In this document: piece after piece, positions 7,943-62,319 of the stretch
How the letters are laid out: every line of letters starts with the position of its first letter
Position numbering within the stretch: position 1 is the first letter of the stretch
Source of the DNA: Meiothermus sp.
Lineage (GTDB): Bacteria > Deinococcota > Deinococci > Deinococcales > Thermaceae
Assembly: GCF_026004075.1 (NCBI RefSeq)
Contig: NZ_BPIK01000002.1
Span: 186,001 to 250,000, forward strand
DNA length: 64,000 bases
Direction of reading: 5' to 3'
The notes under the pieces: model-generated
What the model was told of the DNA's origin: nothing
Seen by the model: the letters and a program-made list of their open reading frames with translations, nothing else
Databases searched by the model: none
Translations under genes and position numbers: made by a program

Positions 7943-8050
7943 GGAGCTTGCAGTCAATTCAGGAGCAAACCCGGGAAGGTCTTGTGGTTTTTGTTTTGAA
8001 AGCTGTGCTAACAGCCCCCGCGTCTCATAAGGTTCATCCGCAACCAGCCA

Positions 8051-8947
8051 CTAGCTCATCACCTCTTCCGGGTGGTGCTTGTTCCAGTAGCGCACCAGCC
8101 CATCCACGCTCATCCAGGCGGGGTCGGCAAACTCGTACTCCTGTATTTCTTCCTCGGAAAGCCCCGCGGCTCGGAGGGTGGCGGCCACGTAGGCCTCGAA
8201 AGCCTGCACCATCTGCTCGCGGGTGAGGCCGGCCTTGAGTTGTTGCTTAATCCAGTCGGCCCACTCCAGCAAGCGCGCTTCCAGTGCGTCCAGATGGGGC
8301 CCTACGTCCTCGGTTTCGCCAAAGTGGGTCAGGTAAATCTTGCTCAGCTTCAAGGCCCGTATCCGGGCGATGGACGCACGCCAAGCTTCAATGTGAATTT
8401 CTGGCGGGGGGCAGGGGGGCAGCACCGGGCCGCGCCCAATTTTGACCCCGGTTACGTCGCCGCCGATCAGCACCTCGCCAATCCGGTAGGCGTGGTGGTG
8501 GTAAGCATGGCCGGGGGTCTCGAGGGCCTCGATCTGGGCCTCGCCAATCTGGATCACCTGCCCGTCCTGGACGATCTCGATCTGGCCCTCCGGCACGTGG
8601 CCCATCTGGCCCCAGAGTTCTTCCATCCGGTCGCCGTAGATGCGGCTGGCCGAGGCCCAAAGCTTGCTGGGGTCTACCAGGTGCGGCGCCCCCTTGGGGT
8701 GGACGTAGATGGTCGCGCCCCGCTCGGCCATGCGCCAGGCGGCGCCCGCGTGGTCGAGGTGGATGTGGGTCACGAAGACGTGCTTAACGTCGGAAGCGGC
8801 GTAGCCCAGCGCGTTGAGGCCATCCAGCAGCACCGAGAAGCGCGACTCCGGCCCGGTCTCGAAGAGCACCGGCCCCTGGCTGGTTTCCAGCAGGAACGAA
8901 GCAATTACCCTGGGAGCCCGGTCGTGAAGGTCGAGGATGTGGATCAC
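8051..8947 (-). CDS. Metallo-beta-lactamase fold hydrolase
   Basis: 298 residues if the GTG at 8947 is the start. An ATG at 8983 would add 12 residues but overlap the upstream gene by 17 bp. The binuclear metal motif is present as THIHLDHAG, with further ligands in the LETPGHAYHHHAY and GGDVTG segments. The N-terminal beta-strand block (VIHILDLHDRAPRVIASFLLET) and an alpha-helical C-terminal third of about 90 residues resemble the glyoxalase-II-like hydrolases rather than RNases or beta-lactamases proper. The likely reaction is thioester or ester hydrolysis in the cytoplasm, since there is no signal peptide. It follows the M20 peptidase gene by 19 bp and may share its transcript. Substrate unknown. 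Confidence 0.85.
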   Translation of the reverse strand: MIHILDLHDRAPRVIASFLLETSQGPVLFETGPESRFSVLLDGLNALGYAASDVKHVFVTHIHLDHAGAAWRMAERGATIYVHPKGAPHLVDPSKLWASASRIYGDRMEELWGQMGHVPEGQIEIVQDGQVIQIGEAQIEALETPGHAYHHHAYRIGEVLIGGDVTGVKIGRGPVLPPCPPPEIHIEAWRASIARIRALKLSKIYLTHFGETEDVGPHLDALEARLLEWADWIKQQLKAGLTREQMVQAFEAYVAATLRAAGLSEEEIQEYEFADPAWMSVDGLVRYWNKHHPEEVMS

Positions 8948-8966
8948 AGGCCTATTGTATGCCGGC

Positions 8967-10322
8967 CTAAAAGATGCCTGCAAAGCCGTCCAGAATGCGG
9001 GCGATGTGCCGGGCGGCGTTGTGGAAGTCCTGGATGCGGATGTTCTCGTTGGGGGCGTGGGTGCGGTTGGTGATGCCGTAGCCCACCCCCGCGTCGATGA
9101 CCGGGATGTTCAGGGGCCCGGCAAAGGCATACACCGGCGAGCTGCCCCCGGTGAGGGGGATGCGCTGGTAGGGCTTCTGGTAGACCTCCTGGGCTGCGCG
9201 GGCCGCCAGCTCTACCAGGGGGTGCTGGGGGTCGGAGCGGGCCGGGAACATGTAGTCGGCGTGGGTAATCTGCACGTCGGTGAAGCCTTCGGTGTCGAGG
9301 TGGGCCCGCAGCTTTTGCAGGATGTCGGTGGGATCCTGGTCGGGCACCAGGCGGAAGTCGAGCTTGGCCTTGGCCCGGGCCGGAATCACGGTCTTGGTGC
9401 CCGGGCCCTGGTAGCCGGTGGTGATGCCCTGGATGTTGCAGGTAGGGTTGAAGACGGCCTTGCGCAGCTCGAAGCCGCTCAGGTTGTTCACAAAGCCCCG
9501 CACCCCAAAGGTCTGGCGCAGGTAGGCCTCGAGGTCGGGTAGGTTGCGCAAGAGCTCGAGATCCTGCTCCGAAACAGGCCGCACATGGTCGTAGAAGCCG
9601 GGAATCAGGATGCGCTCGTTCTCGTCCTTCAAAGAGGCCAGCACCCGCACCATCCGCCAGGCCGCGCTGGGCAGGATGTGGGCGTTGCCGGAGTGGGCGT
9701 CGCGCGAAAGGGTCTCGACCTCCAGCTCCAAAGCCAGAATCCCCCGCCGGCCCAGCGAGGTGCCGGGCCGTTCTTCAAAGTCGATGCCCCCCTCCTCCCA
9801 GATGGCCCCGTCGCATTTGAGCAAGTCCAGGTGATCCTGCACGAACCGGGCGATGCCGGGGCTGCCCACCTCCTCGTTGCCCTCCACTACGAAGAGCACC
9901 CCACAGGGCAGCTCGCCCCCATGCGCGGCCCGCACCGCCTCCACCGCGGCCAGGCGAGCCATAAACTCGCCCTTGTCGTCCTTGGCCCCGCGGGCATAGA
10001 GCTTGCCCTCGCGGATTTGCGGTTCAAAAGGGGGCGAGTCCCACAGCTCCAGCGGCTCGGGGGGCTGCACGTCGTAGTGGTTGTAAAAGAGCAGGGTGCG
10101 CTCCGATTTCCCGGCGGCCCGGCCCACCACCACCGGGTTGCCGTAGCCCTCGAACTTCCAGGTCTCAAAGCCATGCTGTTGCAAGATTTGTTCGACCAGT
10201 TGGGCGCACTCGAGCACCCCCTCGCCGGTGGCCGAGACACTGGGCTGGGCGCAGAGGCGGATGGTCTCTTGCAGGTAGGCCTCGAGGTGCTCTTGCAGGT
10301 AGCGGTCTATGGCTTGCGACAT
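8967..10322 (-). CDS. M20 family metallopeptidase (dipeptidase-like)
   Basis: 451 residues. Zinc-peptidase landmarks of the M20/M28 clan are intact: NHYDVQP with His82 and Asp84, GAKDDKGE with the bridging Asp near 115, the general-base pair GNEEVG (Glu150-Glu151), and a C-terminal NRTHAPNE metal segment. A lid/dimerisation domain occupies about residues 200-320. Length and motifs fit the cytoplasmic dipeptidase / carboxypeptidase-like group, which trims di- and oligopeptides. There is no signal peptide. The -10 box TATAGT (10334-10329) ends 6 nt before the ATG, so the mRNA is probably leaderless, which supports this start. The MBL hydrolase gene lies just downstream on the same strand. Confidence 0.9.
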   Translation of the reverse strand: MSQAIDRYLQEHLEAYLQETIRLCAQPSVSATGEGVLECAQLVEQILQQHGFETWKFEGYGNPVVVGRAAGKSERTLLFYNHYDVQPPEPLELWDSPPFEPQIREGKLYARGAKDDKGEFMARLAAVEAVRAAHGGELPCGVLFVVEGNEEVGSPGIARFVQDHLDLLKCDGAIWEEGGIDFEERPGTSLGRRGILALELEVETLSRDAHSGNAHILPSAAWRMVRVLASLKDENERILIPGFYDHVRPVSEQDLELLRNLPDLEAYLRQTFGVRGFVNNLSGFELRKAVFNPTCNIQGITTGYQGPGTKTVIPARAKAKLDFRLVPDQDPTDILQKLRAHLDTEGFTDVQITHADYMFPARSDPQHPLVELAARAAQEVYQKPYQRIPLTGGSSPVYAFAGPLNIPVIDAGVGYGITNRTHAPNENIRIQDFHNAARHIARILDGFAGIF

Positions 10323-27039: not shown

Positions 27040-27082
27040 GCCAGTCATCGCGCTGGGCAAAAGCCATACAATGGGCAGCGAT

Positions 27083-27574
27083 ATGAACCGAAACGTCATC
27101 GTCATAGTGGTTATCGTGCTGGCTTTGTTGGGTATGGGGGCCTATTTTCTGTTTGGGCAACGCCCAGGCAGCCAGACCAGCGCAGACAGCGGCACACTCT
27201 GCGCCAACCAACCCCCTGCCGCTACCGGCCTTACCAACGAGGGCGTCACCGCCCTCCGCATCGAAGACCTCAAGGAAGGCAACGGCCCCCAGGCCATCAC
27301 CTCCAACACCGTGCGGGTGCAGTACATCGGGCGGCTGGTAGATGGCAAGCAGTTCGACACCTCCTGCCAGCCGGGCCGCACCCCCTTCGAGTTCACCCTG
27401 GGGGCGGGTGAGGTGATTCCCGGCTGGGATTCGGGCATTGTGGGCATGCGGGTCGGCGGTCAGCGCCGCCTGATTATTCCGGCCAATCTGGCCTATGGCG
27501 AGCGCAGCCCCAGCCCCGATATTCCCCCCAACTCGGCCCTGGTTTTCGACGTGGAGCTGCTGGAGATTCGGTAA
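27083..27574 (+). CDS. FKBP-type peptidyl-prolyl isomerase, membrane-anchored
   Basis: 163 residues. One N-terminal helix (VIVIVVIVLALLGMGAYFLF) anchors or exports the protein. A short linker with a single Cys precedes the FKBP domain of about 105 residues: VRVQYIGRLVDGKQFDTS, FTLGAGEVIPGWDSGIVGMRVGG, RRLIIPANLAYGER and SALVFDVELLEI. The active-site aromatic and Asp residues are in place. The start is ATG 27083, because the ATG at 27071 lies within the probable -10 box TACAAT (27067-27072). Role: periplasmic protein folding. Confidence 0.9.
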   Translation: MNRNVIVIVVIVLALLGMGAYFLFGQRPGSQTSADSGTLCANQPPAATGLTNEGVTALRIEDLKEGNGPQAITSNTVRVQYIGRLVDGKQFDTSCQPGRTPFEFTLGAGEVIPGWDSGIVGMRVGGQRRLIIPANLAYGERSPSPDIPPNSALVFDVELLEIR

Positions 27575-31127: not shown

Positions 31128-32174
31128 CTATGGCGCCGTAGTTTGCGACACCCCGGCCTGGGCAAAGGTAGCCATCCCTGCCATTACCGAAGCCGCCGCC
31201 CGCAGGATGGGAAAGCTCAAAACCGCCCCGGTGCCCTCACCCAGGCGCATGTCCAGCTCGAGGATGGGCCTTAGCCCCAGCGCCTCCAACTGCCTTCTGT
31301 GCCCCGGCTCCAGCGAGCGGTGTCCGGCGAAAAGATATTCGCGCACGTTCGGCTCGATGCGGCAGGCCAGCAAAGCCCCGGCGGTTACCGGGAAGCCGTC
31401 GGTGACCAACGGCAGGCCGGCCTCGGCCCCGGCCAGAAACACCCCCGCTATCGCCGCAATTTCCAGCCCCCCCAGCTCTGTGAGCAGCTCGAGCGGCCCG
31501 GCTTGAGTAAGGTCGCCCAGGCGGGACTGAGCTCGCTGCAGCGCCCTGCGGACGACCTGCACCTTTTGCTGGTAGCGGGCCTCGTCCACCCCCGTACCGC
31601 GCCCGGTCACCGCCTCAGCCTCCAGACCCAGCAAGGCCGCGGTGAGGGCTGCCGCAGCGGTGGTATTGCCGATGCCCATATCGCCGGCGGCCAGGAGGGT
31701 AGCGCCCTCGGCGATGGCCCGGCGGGCGGCCTCGGCCCCGACCCGGATGGCCTGCTCGGCTTCGGCGCGGGTCATGGCAGCCTCCTGGGCGATGTTGCCG
31801 GTGCCCGACCGCACCCGCTCCGGCGACGGAACGGGGGAGTTGATGCCCACGTCGAGCACGTAAACCTGGGCGTCGGCGGCTCGAGCAATTTGATTGATGG
31901 CCGCGCCCCCCGCCCGAAAGTTCAGGAGCATCTGGGCGGTCACCTCGGATGGGTAGGCCGAGACGCCCTCGGCGGCCACCCCGTGGTCGGCGGCGCAGAC
32001 GATCACGGCGCCCTTGCCCAGCGTGGGCCGCAGGGTCTGCTGGATGGCGGCCAGGCGAACCCCCAGTTCCTCCAGATACCCCAGCGAGCCCGGCGGCTTG
32101 GTGAGCTGATCCTGGTGGGCTCGAGCCTGGGCCAGCCATTCTTGGGGGATGGGTGGGATGTTGAAGTGCATCAT
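31128..32174 (-). CDS. cobT: Nicotinate-nucleotide-dimethylbenzimidazole phosphoribosyltransferase
   Basis: 348 residues. It transfers phosphoribose to dimethylbenzimidazole to form alpha-ribazole phosphate for the lower ligand of B12. Motifs: TKPPGSLGYLEELG at the N-terminus, CAADHGVAAEGVSAYPSEVT, GDMGIGNTTAAAALTAAL, VTGRGTGVD, and the C-terminal RLGEGTGAVL with the catalytic Glu. Last gene of the riboswitch-controlled minus-strand operon. It starts 3 nt after the original end of cobU. A cobS (cobalamin synthase) gene is not in this operon and must be elsewhere if the pathway is complete. Confidence 0.95.
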   Translation of the reverse strand: MMHFNIPPIPQEWLAQARAHQDQLTKPPGSLGYLEELGVRLAAIQQTLRPTLGKGAVIVCAADHGVAAEGVSAYPSEVTAQMLLNFRAGGAAINQIARAADAQVYVLDVGINSPVPSPERVRSGTGNIAQEAAMTRAEAEQAIRVGAEAARRAIAEGATLLAAGDMGIGNTTAAAALTAALLGLEAEAVTGRGTGVDEARYQQKVQVVRRALQRAQSRLGDLTQAGPLELLTELGGLEIAAIAGVFLAGAEAGLPLVTDGFPVTAGALLACRIEPNVREYLFAGHRSLEPGHRRQLEALGLRPILELDMRLGEGTGAVLSFPILRAAASVMAGMATFAQAGVSQTTAP

Positions 32175-32177
32175 AGA

Positions 32178-32687
32178 CTATTTAATCTGTACCGGAATGC
32201 CCGCCACCAGCAGGTAGACCCGGTGGGCCTCCTGGGCGACGCGGGTGTTGGCCGCCCCCAGCAGGTCGCGTTAGTGCCGGGCCAGGGAGTTCTCGGGCAC
32301 GACGCCCAGGCCCACCTCGTTGCTGACCACCAGCAGGGTTTTGCCGGTCTGGGCCCGAACCGCCAGCAGGTGCTCGAGCGCGGGCAGCACCTCGAGCCCG
32401 GCCAGCATCAGGTTGGAGACCCACAGGGTCAGGCAGTCCAGCAGCACCACCCCATGCCGGGCCTCCTGCAGGGCCTGGGGCACCTCGAGCGGGGCTTCCA
32501 GGGTTTCCCAGGTGGGGGGGCGCTCGGCCCGGTGCTTAGCGATGCGCTGGCGCATCTCCCCGTCCAGCGGCTCCGCTGTGGCGATAAAGCTCACCTGCGC
32601 CTGCCCCAGGGCCAGGGCCTGGGCCTGGGCAAAGCGGCTCTTACCGGCCCTGGCTCCCCCCGTGATGAGCACCAGATGGTTCTGCAC
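32178..32687 (-). pseudogene. cobU: cobU (adenosylcobinamide kinase/guanylyltransferase) interrupted by an in-frame stop
   Basis: The frame starts at ATG 32687 with the P-loop ITGGARAGKSRFAQ, then PLDGEMRQRIAKHRAERP (guanylyl-accepting His), VVLLDCLTLWVSNL and VSNEVGLGVVPENSLARH. It then meets TAA at 32271-32273, codon 139. The same frame continues without change of phase for 30 more codons (RDLLGAANTRVAQEAHRVYLLVAG...) to TAG at 32178, exactly the C-terminal part expected of CobU. The stop stands where relatives have an aromatic residue before RDLLG, so a single base change (TAC or TAT to TAA) explains it. Either the enzyme is truncated by 31 residues, the gene is dead, or there is a sequencing error. 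The neighbours cobC and cobT are intact. Confidence 0.85.
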
Positions 32688-32693
32688 AGGGCC

Positions 32694-33239
32694 TCACCCC
32701 TTGTCCTCGGGTGTCCGCACGAAGCGCACCCGCTTGTGCGCCCAGTCCACCCCTACCACTGCACAGGGCGGCAGGAAGCGGTCTTGATCTAGCTCCCGCA
32801 GCACCATGCGCAGCACCCCCCCGTGGGTGAAAACCAGGTGGCGGCCCGCCGGCAGGCGGTCGAAGAAGCCATACACCCGACAGCGCAACTGGGCGGTGGA
32901 CTCCCCCCCGGGCGCCTGGAAGCCATCAAAGGCCAGGAGCGCCGCTTTGTAGGCCTCGGGCAGCTCGGCCCACTTCAGGCCCTCGAGCTGGCCGAACTCG
33001 AGCTCGCGCAGCGCCACCGAGACTTCTTGGGGTTCGCCGTAGGCCAGCCGGGCGGTCTGGATGGCCCGTTGCAAATCGGAGGCCACCACCCGCTCGAAGC
33101 GTTCGGCGGCCAGCCAGCCCGACAGAGCCCGGGCCTGCTGCTCGCCCAGCGCGGTAAGCGGCACATCGCTCCAGCCGGTGAGCCGCCCCTCCTGGTTCCA
33201 CGGGGTCTCTCCGTGCCGCACCAGCCAGAGTTCGCTCAT
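32694..33239 (-). CDS. cobC: Histidine phosphatase, probable alpha-ribazole phosphatase
   Basis: 181 residues. The phosphoglycerate-mutase-like signature LVRHGETPWNQEGRLTGWSD holds the phosphorylated His9. The partner motifs ASDLQRAIQTA, LRELEFGQLEG, and FTHGGVLRMVL (second His) are in order. The fold alone does not define the substrate. The setting between cobU and B12 transport genes makes dephosphorylation of alpha-ribazole phosphate or adenosylcobalamin phosphate the likely reaction. Its start overlaps the stop of the 111-residue gene upstream (ATGA), and cobU begins 6 nt after its end. Confidence 0.85.
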   Translation of the reverse strand: MSELWLVRHGETPWNQEGRLTGWSDVPLTALGEQQARALSGWLAAERFERVVASDLQRAIQTARLAYGEPQEVSVALRELEFGQLEGLKWAELPEAYKAALLAFDGFQAPGGESTAQLRCRVYGFFDRLPAGRHLVFTHGGVLRMVLRELDQDRFLPPCAVVGVDWAHKRVRFVRTPEDKG

Positions 33240-33571
33240 GGCTCCACCCAGGCATAAAAGGGGGTCTCCACGAACTCCGGCGGCCCCGCCAGATACAGCC
33301 CCAGCCCCGGCAGGCGCAGCACCGGGCCCTCCTGCTCGAAGTCCAGGGGATCGGCAGGCAGGGCATACAGCAGGGTTTCACCCGGCGGCAGCCCGGCCCG
33401 CATCAGGTGGGCGTGCCCCGCCCCCCGCCCCATGCGCACACACGTGGTCTGGGCCGAGCGCATCACCGCCACATAGCGCGCCAGCCGCGGCCCGTCCTGG
33501 GTCATCAGGCGGCGCACCTCGCCCAGGTCGAGCACCAATAGTTTGGGGGTAACCTTCAAGCTGGCCTGCAT
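33236..33571 (-). CDS. Uncharacterised protein in the cobalamin operon
   Basis: 111 residues, locked between btuD and cobC by a contact at 33571/33572 and a 4-bp overlap at 33236. It is therefore translated with B12 genes under the riboswitch. The sequence opens MQASLKVTPKLLVLDLGEVRRLM and continues with short beta-like and Gly/Pro-rich segments (GAGHAHLMRAGLPPGETLLYALP, PGLGLYLAGPPEFVETPFYAW). It has one Cys and two clustered His, no signal peptide and no membrane helix. I do not recognise a family. Position suggests a role in cobalamin or cobinamide handling, but nothing in the sequence proves it. Confidence 0.7.
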   Translation of the reverse strand: MQASLKVTPKLLVLDLGEVRRLMTQDGPRLARYVAVMRSAQTTCVRMGRGAGHAHLMRAGLPPGETLLYALPADPLDFEQEGPVLRLPGLGLYLAGPPEFVETPFYAWVEP

Positions 33572-34372
33572 CTACCCTCCCAGGAGCACCACCGGCTGGC
33601 CCTCGATCCACCGCACCCGCACCTGCCGGCCATACACCTGCTGCAACAGGGCCTCGCTCAGCACCTCGCCCGGCCGGCCCTGGGCCAAAAGCCGCCCCTC
33701 CGACAAAAAAGCCACCCAGTCGGCCTTACCGGCCAGGTTGGGGTCGTGCAGCACCGTAAGGATGCCCAGCCCCTGGGCCCGCAAGCCCGCCACCAGGGCC
33801 AGAAACTCGGCCTGGTGGTGCAGGTCGAGGTGGTTGGTGGGCTCGTCCAGCAGCAAAAACCTGGGCCGCGCCGCCAAGGCTCGGGCCAGCAAAACCCGCT
33901 GCCGCTCCCCGCCCGAGAGCGTGGGCAGCAGCCGGTGGCGGAACCCGCTCACCTGGGTCTGCTGCATGGCCCATTCCACCGCCTCCCGGTCGGCCCGGCC
34001 CCCCCGCCCCAGCAAGCCCAGGTGGGGGGTGCGGCCCAGGGCCACCACCTCTTCTACCGTGAGGTCTTCGGGGTAGCCGCCGTTCTGCGGCAGGAAGGCG
34101 ATCTGCTGGCCTCGAAGCCAGCTCGAGTACCCCCCCAGGGGCCGCCCGCCCAGGTACACCCCCCCTCGAGTTGGCTTCAAGAGCCCGGCCAGTAGGCGCA
34201 GCAGGGTAGACTTCCCCGAGCCGTTGGGCCCCAACAGGGCCAGCCACTCCCCCGCGTTCAGCTCGAGGTGGATATCCTCCAGCACCGCCCGGCCCCGGTA
34301 GGCAAAGGAGACCTCGAGGGCCCCCAACCCCCTCACCACAGGCCCTTCGATCACAGCCTTCCCCTCGCTCAT
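33572..34372 (-). CDS. btuD: Cobalamin/iron-siderophore-type ABC ATPase (BtuD-like)
   Basis: 266 residues from ATG 34372, which overlaps the permease stop (ATGA). An ATG 18 nt upstream is less likely. Walker A LLGPNGSGKSTL, Q-loop region IAFLPQNGGYPEDLTVEEVVALGR (FepC/BtuD type), signature LSGGERQRVLLARAL and Walker B FLLLDEPTNHLDL are intact. It energises uptake of B12 through BtuC. The riboswitch and cob neighbours decide for cobalamin over siderophores. Confidence 0.92.
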   Translation of the reverse strand: MSEGKAVIEGPVVRGLGALEVSFAYRGRAVLEDIHLELNAGEWLALLGPNGSGKSTLLRLLAGLLKPTRGGVYLGGRPLGGYSSWLRGQQIAFLPQNGGYPEDLTVEEVVALGRTPHLGLLGRGGRADREAVEWAMQQTQVSGFRHRLLPTLSGGERQRVLLARALAARPRFLLLDEPTNHLDLHHQAEFLALVAGLRAQGLGILTVLHDPNLAGKADWVAFLSEGRLLAQGRPGEVLSEALLQQVYGRQVRVRWIEGQPVVLLGG

Positions 34373-35436
34373 ACCCGCCGCCCCCGCCACAGCAAGTACA
34401 GGAAAAAGGGCCCCCCCAGCAGCGTGGTCACGATGCCCACCGGCAGCTCCGCCGGGGCCACCAGCACCCGCGCCCCCAGGTCGGCCCAGAGCAACAGCAC
34501 CGCCCCTCCCAGGGCCGAGCCCGGCAGCAGGTAGCGGTAGTCGCCCCCCAAGAGCCGCCGGAGCACGTGCGGGGCCACCAGGCCCACAAAACCGATGATG
34601 CCGGCCTGGGCCACCGCCGCAGCGGTCAGCAGGGTGGCGGCCCCAATCAAGAGCAGCTTGAGCCCCTCGAGCGGCAGTCCCAGGCTGCGGGCGGTCTCCT
34701 CGCCCAGGGTGAGGGCGTTGAGGGTGCGGGCCAGCAGCAAAAAGAGCGGCAAGGTGAGCAGCAGGTACAAGGCCAGCGACCCCACCCCCGGCCAGCTCAG
34801 GAAGGCCAGGTTGCCCAGGGTATAGGCAAACACCGCCCGCACCCGGTCGGCATCCTGCAGCATCAGGTAGCTGGTCAGGCCCACCAGCACGCTTCCCACC
34901 ACCACCCCGGCCAGAATCAGGTCGTGGGTGCGGCTGGCCCCACCCGAGAGAAAAAGCACCAGCAGAACGGCCCCAATCGCCCCCAGAAAGCCAAACCAGG
35001 TGGCCGAAGCGGGCAGAAAACTGAACACCGCATGCTGGGCAAAGGCCCCACCCAGCCCCCCCGCCAGGCTCACCGCCAGCGTGACCCCAAAGGCCGCCCC
35101 CGCCGCCGAGCCCATCAGGTAGGGGTCGGCCAGGGGGTTGCGAAACAGGCCCTGGAAGGCCGCACCCGAGAGGCCCAGCGCGGCCCCCACCAGCAGGGCC
35201 CCCAGCACCCTGGGCAGGCGCAGCTCGGTGATGATGGGGTTCTCGCCGAGGCCCAGCAAAGCCCGCACCACCTCATCCGGCGCAATGGGCACGGCCCCCT
35301 GCCCCACCCCCAGCACCAGGCCCAGCACCAGCAGGCCCAGCAGGCCCGTAAAAACCAGCAGCCGCCGACCGAGCATTCGGCCCCGGCGCCCCCCCGCAAG
35401 GGGGGATACGCGGCCTGGATAGGTGGTCTTTTGCAT
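34369..35436 (-). CDS. btuC: Cobalamin ABC transporter permease (BtuC/FecCD family)
   Basis: 355 residues with about ten membrane helices, the FecCD fold. Typical stretches are LRLPRVLGALLVGAALGLSGAAFQGLFRNPLADPYLMG, GAAFGVTLAVSLAGGLGG, LGLPLEGLKLLLIGAATLLTAAAVAQAGIIGFVGLVAPHVLRRLLGGDYR and LPVGIVTTLLGGPFFLYLLWR. The true start may be the ATG at 35436 or one 20 codons later; the intervening residues are basic and cytoplasmic. It follows btuF by 4 nt and overlaps btuD. Confidence 0.94.
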   Translation of the reverse strand: MQKTTYPGRVSPLAGGRRGRMLGRRLLVFTGLLGLLVLGLVLGVGQGAVPIAPDEVVRALLGLGENPIITELRLPRVLGALLVGAALGLSGAAFQGLFRNPLADPYLMGSAAGAAFGVTLAVSLAGGLGGAFAQHAVFSFLPASATWFGFLGAIGAVLLVLFLSGGASRTHDLILAGVVVGSVLVGLTSYLMLQDADRVRAVFAYTLGNLAFLSWPGVGSLALYLLLTLPLFLLLARTLNALTLGEETARSLGLPLEGLKLLLIGAATLLTAAAVAQAGIIGFVGLVAPHVLRRLLGGDYRYLLPGSALGGAVLLLWADLGARVLVAPAELPVGIVTTLLGGPFFLYLLWRGRRV

Positions 35437-35440
35437 GGTT

Positions 35441-36319
35441 CTAGCGCAGCTCGGGGTGGAAGCAGCCCACCAGGAGTTGCAACCCCTGGGCTACCCGCGG
35501 GCCGGGCCGCGAGAGCAGGTTGTCCTGCTGGCCGGTAAAAGCGCAGATGCGCTGGTTGCGGATGGCCGCCAGGCTGCCCCAGCCCGCCCGCTTGGGCAGG
35601 TCGGCGGCCCCTGGATGGGTGAGCACGATAACGGCGGGGTTCTTCTGCACCACCAGCTCGGGGCTGATCTGGGGGAAGAGCCCCAGCTCCCTGGGGACGA
35701 TGTTCTGGCCGCGGGCCTTGGTAATCAGCACGCCGATGAACGATTCGGGCCCCACCGTGTAGGGCGTGGGGTCAATCTCGTAGTAGACCGTGGGGCGCTG
35801 GGTGGCCTTGGCCGCCCGGGTCTCCACCGCGTACACTTCGCGTTGTATTTGCGCCACCAGCCGCTCGGCCTGGGCTTCCAGCCCCAGCACCCGGCCCAGC
35901 AGGCGGGTGGTGCGGAAGATGTCGTCGTAGGTTTCGGGCTTGATGGCAAAGGTAGCGACCCCGGCCCGCTCGAGCCCCTCGTGCAGCTTGCCGTAGATCG
36001 AGACGATCACCAGGTCGGGCTTGAGGGCCAGGATGGCCTCGAGGTTGGGGTTGAAATACCCCCCCACCTTGGGCAGCCGCTTGACCTGCTCGGGAAAATC
36101 GGAGAAGTCGTCCACCCCCACCAGCCGCCCACAGGCATTCAGGGCGCACACCGTCTCGCTGACCGAGGGCAGCATGGCCACAATGCGCTGGGGCGCGGCT
36201 TTGAGCGTAACGCTGCGGCCCAGGTCGTCGGTCAGGGTGCGCGGGAACGGCTGGGCCAGGCCAGAGGTTAGTAGCGCAAAGCTTAGAGCCAGAAGCAAAA
36301 GCCAGAAAAATCTCTTCAT
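35441..36319 (-). CDS. btuF: Cobalamin-binding periplasmic protein
   Basis: 292 residues from ATG 36319 (GGGAGGG upstream). Signal peptide KRFFWLLLLALSFALLTSGLAQ. The mature protein shows the class III binding-protein pattern: TLTDDLGRSVTLKAAPQRIVAMLPSVSETVCALNACGRLVGVDDFSDFP, then NPNLEAILALKPDLVI and the long linker helix. In the second lobe there is YYEIDPTPYTVGPESFIGVLI. It captures B12 or cobinamide and docks on BtuCD. It is the first gene after the riboswitch terminator. Confidence 0.93.
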   Translation of the reverse strand: MKRFFWLLLLALSFALLTSGLAQPFPRTLTDDLGRSVTLKAAPQRIVAMLPSVSETVCALNACGRLVGVDDFSDFPEQVKRLPKVGGYFNPNLEAILALKPDLVIVSIYGKLHEGLERAGVATFAIKPETYDDIFRTTRLLGRVLGLEAQAERLVAQIQREVYAVETRAAKATQRPTVYYEIDPTPYTVGPESFIGVLITKARGQNIVPRELGLFPQISPELVVQKNPAVIVLTHPGAADLPKRAGWGSLAAIRNQRICAFTGQQDNLLSRPGPRVAQGLQLLVGCFHPELR

Positions 36320-36355
36320 CGCGTCCCTCCCCAACCCGGTCTCGCCGCTGGGCGT

Positions 36356-36382: not shown

Positions 36383-36462
36383 CTACAGATAATGTAGAGA
36401 TTCCCCGAGACTCCTCCTTCATGCGAGAGGTGCCTTCTCTATCGGAGTTGAGAAGGCGTTTT

Positions 36463-36682
36463 GGCAGGTATTCGGACTTCGGGCGGTGGCTGGCGACCGC
36501 TCTGCGGATCGCTTAAGCCCCAATGCACCGTTACCGCTGCGCGACAGTGCCGGACTTTCACCGGACTTCCCCACTTTAAGCCAGGGCTACGCGCCCAGGC
36601 ACCAAAACTTGACCGGGTTGTCGGGCCCTAACGGGCCTGTTTCCAGGCTACACCCCCCAAGCCCACCCGACAAGCACCTACC
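36463..36682 (-). promoter_or_regulatory. Cobalamin riboswitch
   Basis: 220-nt aptamer on the minus strand. The B12-box elements are clear: GGGGAAGTCCGGTGAAAGTCC, GGCACTGTCGCGCAGCGG and the closing AGTCCGAATACCTGCC. A 7-bp P1 stem forms between GGTAGGT (36682-36676) and ACCTGCC (36469-36463). It controls btuF-C-D-orf-cobC-cobU-cobT. Its 5' strand overlaps the stop codon of the CARF-HEPN gene at 36678, so a transcript from that gene would run directly into the switch. Confidence 0.93.
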
Positions 36683-52937: not shown

Positions 52938-53324
52938 CTATCGGCGCTTGCGCCCACCCTTTCCACCGCTGGACTTTTTGCCTCCACCGCCACCAAAACC
53001 ACCTGAGCCGCGCAAAAAGCTTTTGAGCTTGTTCTCGAACTCGGGAGCCTGGCGGGGCAAGCGCTTGGGTCGGGGGGGCTCCACGGGGGCGGGGGTAAGT
53101 TCTTTGATAGAAAGGTCGAGGCGGCCTTTCTCGTCGCGACCCAACACCAAGACCGAGACCACATCCCCTTCATTCAGGTGATCGCGGATGTTCTTGACGA
53201 ACTCGTGGGCCACCTGCGAGATGTGCACCAGACCCGATTCCCCGCTGGGAAACTCGATAAAAGCCCCAAAATCCATGATTCGCGTGACGCGACCCTCTAC
53301 AATTGCACCGGCTTTAAGCTCCAT
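52938..53324 (-). CDS. S1-domain RNA-binding protein
   Basis: 128 residues. One S1/OB fold fills about residues 1-77 ([61 protein letters not shown]). A linker and a Gly/Lys/Arg tail follow ([21 protein letters not shown]), which looks like an unstructured RNA-binding extension. Similar single-S1 proteins (YugI, GSP13) associate with ribosomes and mRNA. GGAGG precedes the ATG. Confidence 0.85.
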
Positions 53325-53538
53325 TCAGGCGTTCCTCCAAAACGACACGCAATCCCATAGCTCAGGCGTACTAAAGCTGTTGGGGATTCACGATACTTTA
53401 CTATATCACCTCGAGCCCACTTCTTCACAAAGCGAAGTTTTTACTAGCACTGAAGGAAGCAGTCGTGTCTCAAAACATGTAACGCATTTACAACACCAGC
53501 AAGTAAAAGTGATATATTTAGGACACGGAGGAACCAAA

Positions 53539-61201: not shown

Positions 61202-62319
61202 ACCGCATCGCCGCCCTGGCGCAAAAGGAGTTCACCCAGATCCGCCGCGACCACGTGCTGTCCCGGCTTATTGTGGGGCTGCCCATCGTCATGACCCTGT
61301 TGTTCGGCTACGCCATCAACTTCACCCTCTCGGGCATCCGCCTGGCCGTCTACGATGGTTCGCAAGACCGCATCAGCCAGTACCTGCTGCAAGAGCTGCA
61401 AAAGGAAAACCGCTTTACCCTCACCTACATCGCACAAAACCCAGCGGAGGTTCCGCAGGCCATCCAGAAAAACCGGGCCCGGGTCGGCCTGGTAATTCCT
61501 TCGGGCGCCCTGCAGACCGTGCGGCAGGATAAAGCTGTGCAGCTCGAGGTGTTTGTGGATGGCGCCGACCCCAACTTTGCCTTCCAGGCCCAGGCCGCCC
61601 TGCGCAAGGTGCTGGGAGACGTCAACAGCCGCCTGCTGGCGGGCAAGGTGCTGGCCGGAACCGCCACCACCCCGCCCCTCACCCCCACCCTGCACACCCT
61701 CTACAACCCCGACAACAAAACCGCCTGGTTTACCATCCCGGGCATCATCGGCCTGATTATGACCATTTTTACGGTGCTCCTGACCGCGCTTTCGATCGTG
61801 CGCGAAAACGAGGGCCGCACCATGGAGGCCCTGATTGCCAGCCCCATCAAACCCTACGAGGTGGTGCTGGGCAAGGTGCTGCCCTATTTTGTGATTGCCA
61901 CCCTGGTGAGCCTGGTGGTGCTCTCGATCGGGCACTGGGTGTTTGGCGTGCCGGTGCGTGGGAGCCTGCTGCTGCTGTTTGGGCTCATCGTGCTCTTTGT
62001 GCTGGGCTCGCTGGGGGTGGGGGTGCTGATTTCCACCCTGGCCCGCACCCAGATTCAGGCCGTGTTTGGTACTTTTGCCTACATCCTGCCCACCATTTTT
62101 CTTTCGGGGTTCGTATTTCCAGTGGACGGGATGCCCCTTTTCTTTAGGTGGTTGGCGGCGGTGATCCCGGCCCGCTATCTGATTGATGGCACGCGGGGGG
62201 TAATGCTCCGGGGCGCGGGCCTCGAGACCCTCTGGGTAGACCTGGTGGCGCTCGTCATTTTCAGCGTGGCCGTGCTGGGTCTGGCCAGCCTGCGCTTTGG
62301 CAAACGGCTGGCGGCCTGA
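61198..62319 (+). CDS. ABC-2 type exporter permease
   Basis: 373 residues. One helix near the N-terminus (VLSRLIVGLPIVMTLLFGYAINF), an extracytoplasmic domain of about 130 residues with LAVYDGSQDRISQYLLQEL, and five C-terminal helices starting WFTIPGIIGLIMTIFTVLLTALSIVRENEGRTMEALIASPIKP. This is the YhhJ/DrrB-like ABC2_membrane_3 layout. IPARYLIDGTRGVMLRG near the end is typical. ATGA overlap with the ATPase gene. Confidence 0.93.
   Translation: MNRIAALAQKEFTQIRRDHVLSRLIVGLPIVMTLLFGYAINFTLSGIRLAVYDGSQDRISQYLLQELQKENRFTLTYIAQNPAEVPQAIQKNRARVGLVIPSGALQTVRQDKAVQLEVFVDGADPNFAFQAQAALRKVLGDVNSRLLAGKVLAGTATTPPLTPTLHTLYNPDNKTAWFTIPGIIGLIMTIFTVLLTALSIVRENEGRTMEALIASPIKPYEVVLGKVLPYFVIATLVSLVVLSIGHWVFGVPVRGSLLLLFGLIVLFVLGSLGVGVLISTLARTQIQAVFGTFAYILPTIFLSGFVFPVDGMPLFFRWLAAVIPARYLIDGTRGVMLRGAGLETLWVDLVALVIFSVAVLGLASLRFGKRLAA

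Follow-up and report, generated by a model that had tools for sequence, protein, structure and literature searches.

CobU phosphorylates adenosylcobinamide and adds GMP, and CobS then joins the product to alpha-ribazole. CobY is an alternative guanylyltransferase, and CbiZ is a corrinoid-remodelling amidohydrolase. The gene described here is like the CobU/CobP family (PF02283; 1CBU, 1C9K, 8YES, 9VIS) in sequence, in the predicted fold of its intact orthologue and in its placement beside cobT and cobC, with the difference that its frame is interrupted at codon 139 out of 169.

Erosion of cobamide assembly has been described elsewhere. Mycobacterium leprae is reported to carry cobQ and cobU pseudogenes, and members of the M. 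tuberculosis complex to have mutations in the cobamide pathway (PMC12713380). The likeness to the present genome is that assembly genes are lost while cobamide use is kept; the difference is that those species are pathogens believed to have lost the de novo pathway (PMC12713380), whereas here we deal with a thermophile genus lacking CbiC (0/18 genomes). Meiothermus ruber strain A is described as a B12 auxotroph with an incomplete pathway that has btuCD, metH and methylmalonyl-CoA mutase genes and expresses metE (PMC5340862). The present Meiothermus genome shares the incomplete pathway and these uptake and user genes; in contrast to strain A, neither MetE nor a class I-like ribonucleotide reductase was found in it, and its cobU is interrupted. 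Loss of cobU is an event of a known kind and in itself unremarkable; what makes it informative is the setting. For this particular mutation, no report was found among the open-licence papers listed on Meiothermus or Thermus B12, cobinamide salvage and CobU.

An in-frame TAA in the only cobU gene

The features in and around the gene are listed here by their position in the window, by which we mean the whole 64,000-nucleotide stretch that was analysed.

31128..32174, minus strand: cobT, intact (TIGR03160, 426.2 bits, cut-off 319.3)
32178..32687, minus strand: cobU, adenosylcobinamide kinase / adenosylcobinamide-phosphate guanylyltransferase, interrupted (PF02283, front part E 4.1e-44, tail E 1.2e-5)
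32181..32270, minus strand: 30 open, conserved codons after the stop, with similar identity to relatives on either side of the stop
32271..32273, minus strand: in-frame TAA, codon 139, at a Tyr/Phe position in homologues
32694..33239, minus strand: cobC-like alpha-ribazole phosphatase, intact (PF00300, E 8e-44)
33236..33571, minus strand: small conserved gene between btuD and cobC
33572..34390, minus strand: btuD-like ABC ATPase, named by context (the best 25 of 193 NCBIfam models all fall below their cut-offs)
34369..35436, minus strand: btuC-like permease (best NCBIfam model BtuC B12 permease, 226 bits, below the 461 cut-off)
35441..36334, minus strand: btuF-like binding protein, named by context (TroA_like, 51.2 bits, above the cut-off of 30)
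36446..36621, minus strand: cobalamin riboswitch upstream of btuF (RF00174, 59.9 bits, gathering score 31.5)

The cobU frame starts with GTG at 32687 and runs for 138 codons to the TAA, which appears as 'tta' in the letters of the plus strand; the 30 open codons that follow end at a TAG (32178-32180), 3 nt before the ATG of cobT (32172-32174). The front part ends at position 138 of the Pfam CobU profile (positions 1-138), and the tail continues in register, with codons 140-168 matching profile positions 140-168 when searched alone. A six-frame profile search that reads through stops recovers the whole PF02283 domain, interrupted by a single TAA (187.1 bits, positions 1-168). An earlier note on this DNA had described a TAA within cobU followed by 30 preserved codons that end just short of cobT, and the letters together with the Pfam matches bear out the gene, the frame, the coordinates, the preserved tail and the distance to cobT. 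The front part scores 146.4 bits against the complete-enzyme model NF004469, below its cut-off of 161 bits, so that the gene falls short of an uninterrupted complete enzyme by this measure. Amino-acid identity to the orthologue in G012 (locus L022), one of the nearest relatives, is 0.94 before the stop and 0.93 after it. The interrupted gene is the only CobU match in the genome, which is assembled in 2 contigs (3,248,096 bases, 99.92% complete).

The neighbouring genes form a B12 cluster. The best NCBIfam model for the cobC-like gene, ribazole_cobC, gives 117.4 bits (cut-off 162.9), and the btuF-like protein scores 73 bits against the BtuF model (cut-off 234). At E 0.001 the small gene matches nothing in NCBIfam or Pfam; its orthologues in G016, G012 and G010 are 74-75% identical. 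Protein identity to the nearest relatives is 74-92% for the small gene, btuD and btuC, compared with 93-97% for cobT, cobC and btuF, and this greater divergence suggests that the segment 33236-35436 may have been replaced by recombination. Ahead of cobC, about 870 bases present in the relatives are missing here; they include a gene that, on inspection, resembles one for a binding protein. In addition, cobS (G000:C2:269785-270444) lies about 52 kb from cobT, while in G016, G012 and G010 the two are within about 1.5 kb, a rearrangement with its breakpoint just past cobT (window position 31128).

The stop site among relatives and recent change in cobU

We searched 61 genomes, this one and 60 relatives, and found CobU in 51 of them, with 52 matches. 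An internal stop is present in two matches, the cobU studied here (TAA) and that of G040 (TGA). The latter (L174, G040:C12:213752-214246), from another family of the same order, has its TGA at about residue 32, as judged by reading the translation. A cobU match is present throughout the genus (18 of 18 genomes), and the 17 apart from this one are free of internal stops, among them the nearest relatives G012, G016 and G010 (95%, 94% and 91% DNA identity). At loci L002-L031 the codon at the stop site encodes Tyr in 29 and Phe in 1, so the TAA is not conserved; the 30 loci are not 30 independent genes, as the L031 protein (Meiothermus sp. SKYG110) is identical to that of L016 from G004. No internal stop occurs in any of the 109 best-match stretches at loci L002-L110, 80 of which are the best 80 of 350. 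The earlier note's remark that the stop occupies a usually aromatic position holds for every homologue with a residue there: 61 have Tyr and 43 have Phe among 104, out of 105 aligned (the 109 stretches without the three nearest relatives and L031, drawn in part from the best 80 of 350). The gene is disrupted here and intact in close relatives, one of the patterns expected of a recent pseudogene.

We consider it probable, with moderate confidence, that a real and recent nonsense mutation truncated the genome's only cobU, and that dependence on imported complete cobamide would follow. The main competitor is a sequencing or assembly error, with an intact gene in the living strain. In favour of an error, the stop codon is one base from the codon of the nearest relatives, and a second substitution unique to this genome lies 4 nt away (gene positions 413 and 417). 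An error would also leave the tail undecayed and the partner genes open, as they are; the open frames of cobT, cobC and cobS fit a very recent event, and equally an error or a bypass. Against an error stand the completeness and contiguity of the assembly and the lack of internal stops in the other 51 dominant-frame genes that were compared with relatives. Furthermore, the changes unique to this genome in cobT and cobC together, 17 synonymous and 2 nonsynonymous (8 and 0 in cobT), give no sign of a general error burden in those genes. An error is on balance unlikely, if by no means negligible.

The comparison of dominant-frame genes covered 52 genes (13,615 codons), with internal stops scored rather than frameshifts, and only cobU has one. 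In this GC-rich DNA, wrong and antisense frames overwhelmed an initial scan for disruptions (116 hits, 16 flagged). The scan was repeated with a filter for mostly synonymous change, leaving 72 frames, and overlapping frames were then dropped to reach 52. Four of the removed frames contain internal stops (53005-53442, 61353-61697, L207 4467-5192 and L207 7768-8220), each overlapping a better-supported gene; for 53005-53442, the frame that overlaps it and has fewer nonsynonymous changes was chosen manually.

In cobU, 14 bases are unique to this genome relative to all three nearest relatives. At codons where the three relatives agree, the counted changes are 6 synonymous and 7 sense-changing ones, the latter being A59T, T122S, I129V, P134S, R138H, the stop and A148T. 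Six of the seven sense changes fall in codons 122-148 (32243-32324, 27 codons), where no synonymous change is found. The residues resulting from the six amino-acid changes are seen in 18, 79, 75, 2, 1 and 1 of 104-105 homologues. Set against a rough null, whose mutation spectrum was derived from the same 14 changes, the six have a high mean frequency (P 0.002) and are seen at all more often than expected (P 0.012), while the number found in at least 2% of homologues is not unusual (P 0.27). Taken as a whole, they suggest that the encoded protein may have been under constraint until recently.

The nonsynonymous share of the changes unique to cobU here (7:6) is indistinguishable from the 17:25 of the other three branches (p 0.53) and from a neutral expectation of 0.62 (p 0.38), so neither the stop's age nor earlier constraint can be read from these counts. 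We had considered relaxed selection before the stop, since cobU at 7:6 looked faster on this branch than cobT and cobC at 2:17 (p 0.015; p 0.032 with the stop omitted), and dropped this claim because cobU changes about as fast on the other three branches. In cobS there are 5 synonymous and 5 nonsynonymous unique changes here, with 0:4, 4:3 and 20:6 on the other branches, and no clear signal emerges.

Read-through and the truncated product

The frame that stays open past the stop, with cobT, cobC and cobS open as well, is what one would see if the UAA were read through at some rate to make a little full-length CobU. A recent mutation, however, predicts the same undecayed tail. Among the 47 tRNAs found with the Rfam model, all in stretches typed by ARAGORN, none has a suppressor-type anticodon (TTA, CTA or TCA), and TAA also terminates an ordinary nearby gene (27071-27574), which we take to encode an FKBP-type protein. 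The RNA downstream of the cobU stop shows no unusual structure (z -0.80). Read-through thus appears very improbable. The earlier note had offered a recent nonsense mutation, read-through and an error as its options, and among them the mutation gives the best fit, an error keeps its smaller share, and read-through has gained no positive support.

A second way to retain function would be a 138-residue product that still works as an enzyme, or two separately made parts that assemble. The P-loop and most invariant columns do lie upstream of the stop. The missing part, on the other hand, contains conserved positions (G144 and G163 invariant; D141, A151 and A162 nearly invariant) and nearly all of three predicted structural elements. 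These are seen in the predicted structure of the intact G016 orthologue (pLDDT 93.8, alignment of 70 rows), which resembles the solved CobU structures from Methylocapsa, Akkermansia, Klebsiella and Salmonella (TM by query 0.78-0.92) and ends in a helix (134-153) and two strands (156-161 and 164-167), nearly all of it encoded after the stop. In the model of the truncated protein (alignment of 50 rows), the helix is reduced to residues 134-137 and neither strand remains. Over residues 121-138 its block pLDDT values are 66 and 56, compared with 89 and 93 in the intact model, with alignments of 50 and 70 rows, respectively. Although it keeps its P-loop, the truncated CobU has lost the greater part of its final long helix and the two C-terminal strands, and is probably unstable or inactive. 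Separate production of the tail is unlikely given that no in-frame ATG, GTG or TTG follows the stop until the last nine codons. We hold a working fragment or a two-part enzyme to be a highly doubtful explanation.

Cobamide salvage, uptake and use

CbiC, the ring-synthesis enzyme that was tested, is missing from all 18 genomes of the genus; applied to 14 control genomes, the search found it in 7, including Thermus composti. Synthesis of the corrin ring in the genus is accordingly unlikely on this gene content, and its CobU probably serves salvage. CobS is present in all 18 genomes, and in this one the reading frames of cobT, cobC and cobS are open.

A second part of cobamide assembly is missing from this genome. 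Of the 18 Meiothermus genomes, 14 have CbiB, the three nearest relatives among them; it is absent here and in G005, G013 and G017. In G016, a 9,290-base stretch between a gene presumed to encode a V-ATPase subunit and the colinear flank holds a cobD-like gene (best model TIGR01140, 181.2 bits, below the cut-off of 290.55), cbiB (TIGR00380, 204.7 bits, cut-off 165.9), metE and ribonucleotide reductase genes. Here 315 bases take its place (G000:C1 ~661241-661555, L207; compared with L202, L203 and L204), and when 6,076 bases of G016 spanning the cobD-like gene, cbiB and metE were searched for at the DNA level, nothing matched beyond the V-ATPase part and 39 bases elsewhere. At the same place, G012 has cbiB and a class Ib ribonucleotide reductase (1004.6 bits, cut-off 750), and G010 has cbiB and a ribonucleotide reductase. 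Compared with its G016 counterpart, the G012 cbiB (L203 ~8000-8980) has two single-base insertions, and it contains an internal TAA, possibly through assembly error in a genome that is 84% complete. Judged from the three nearest relatives, the block appears to have been lost here rather than gained elsewhere. The four genomes without CbiB are also precisely those without a strong class I-like ribonucleotide reductase match; the reductase class was assigned by NCBIfam in two genomes, this one and G012. G005, G013 and G017 lack CbiB yet keep cobU open, so CobU need not be lost when CbiB is.

Enzymes that use B12 are retained. Three B12-binding domains were found, and the two examined belong to MetH (1233.2 bits, cut-off 1010.85) and to the C-terminal domain of methylmalonyl-CoA mutase (174.1 bits, cut-off 57.45). 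The remaining ribonucleotide reductase is of the NrdJ type (B12-type, class II; NCBIfam, 590.6 bits, cut-off 399.95), and an adenosyltransferase is present. MetE was not found in this genome, which is not unusual for the genus, where 5 of 18 genomes have it.

On the favoured reading of a real, recent nonsense mutation, these observations can be joined in one proposed course of events. A genus that apparently makes no corrin ring would have used CobU, CobT, CobS and CobC to complete salvaged cobinamide, and the cobU stop would be one step in an erosion of cobamide assembly that has also removed the cobD-cbiB block. Without CobU, cobinamide would stay uncompleted, as would cobyric acid without CbiB. 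BtuFCD would import complete cobamide, the adenosyltransferase would activate it, and it would then serve the class II ribonucleotide reductase, MetH and methylmalonyl-CoA mutase. From the known function of CobU and the intact btuFCD-like genes, we infer that cobinamide salvage should be lost and uptake of complete B12 kept. The absence of CbiC and of the cobD-cbiB block, together with the retained B12-dependent enzymes, strengthens this reading.

A further step can be put forward only tentatively: with cobD, cbiB and cobU lost, and with neither a class I-like ribonucleotide reductase nor a B12-independent methionine synthase, the lineage may have become a strict consumer of finished cobamides supplied by neighbours, on which even its DNA synthesis would depend. 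It is likewise possible, if somewhat doubtful, that cobT, cobC and cobS would in that case be undecayed remnants or be used outside cobinamide salvage.

The interruption, if real, carries a warning for annotation, as calling cobinamide salvage from a mere CobU match would misjudge this genome. If the mutation is real, the strain is predicted to grow on cobalamin and not on cobinamide. The genome would then offer an early snapshot of a B12 salvager turning into a pure importer, with cobU itself nearly undamaged and a linked, related block already gone, and with the detected ribonucleotide reductase and methionine synthase in the same genome both of B12-dependent types.
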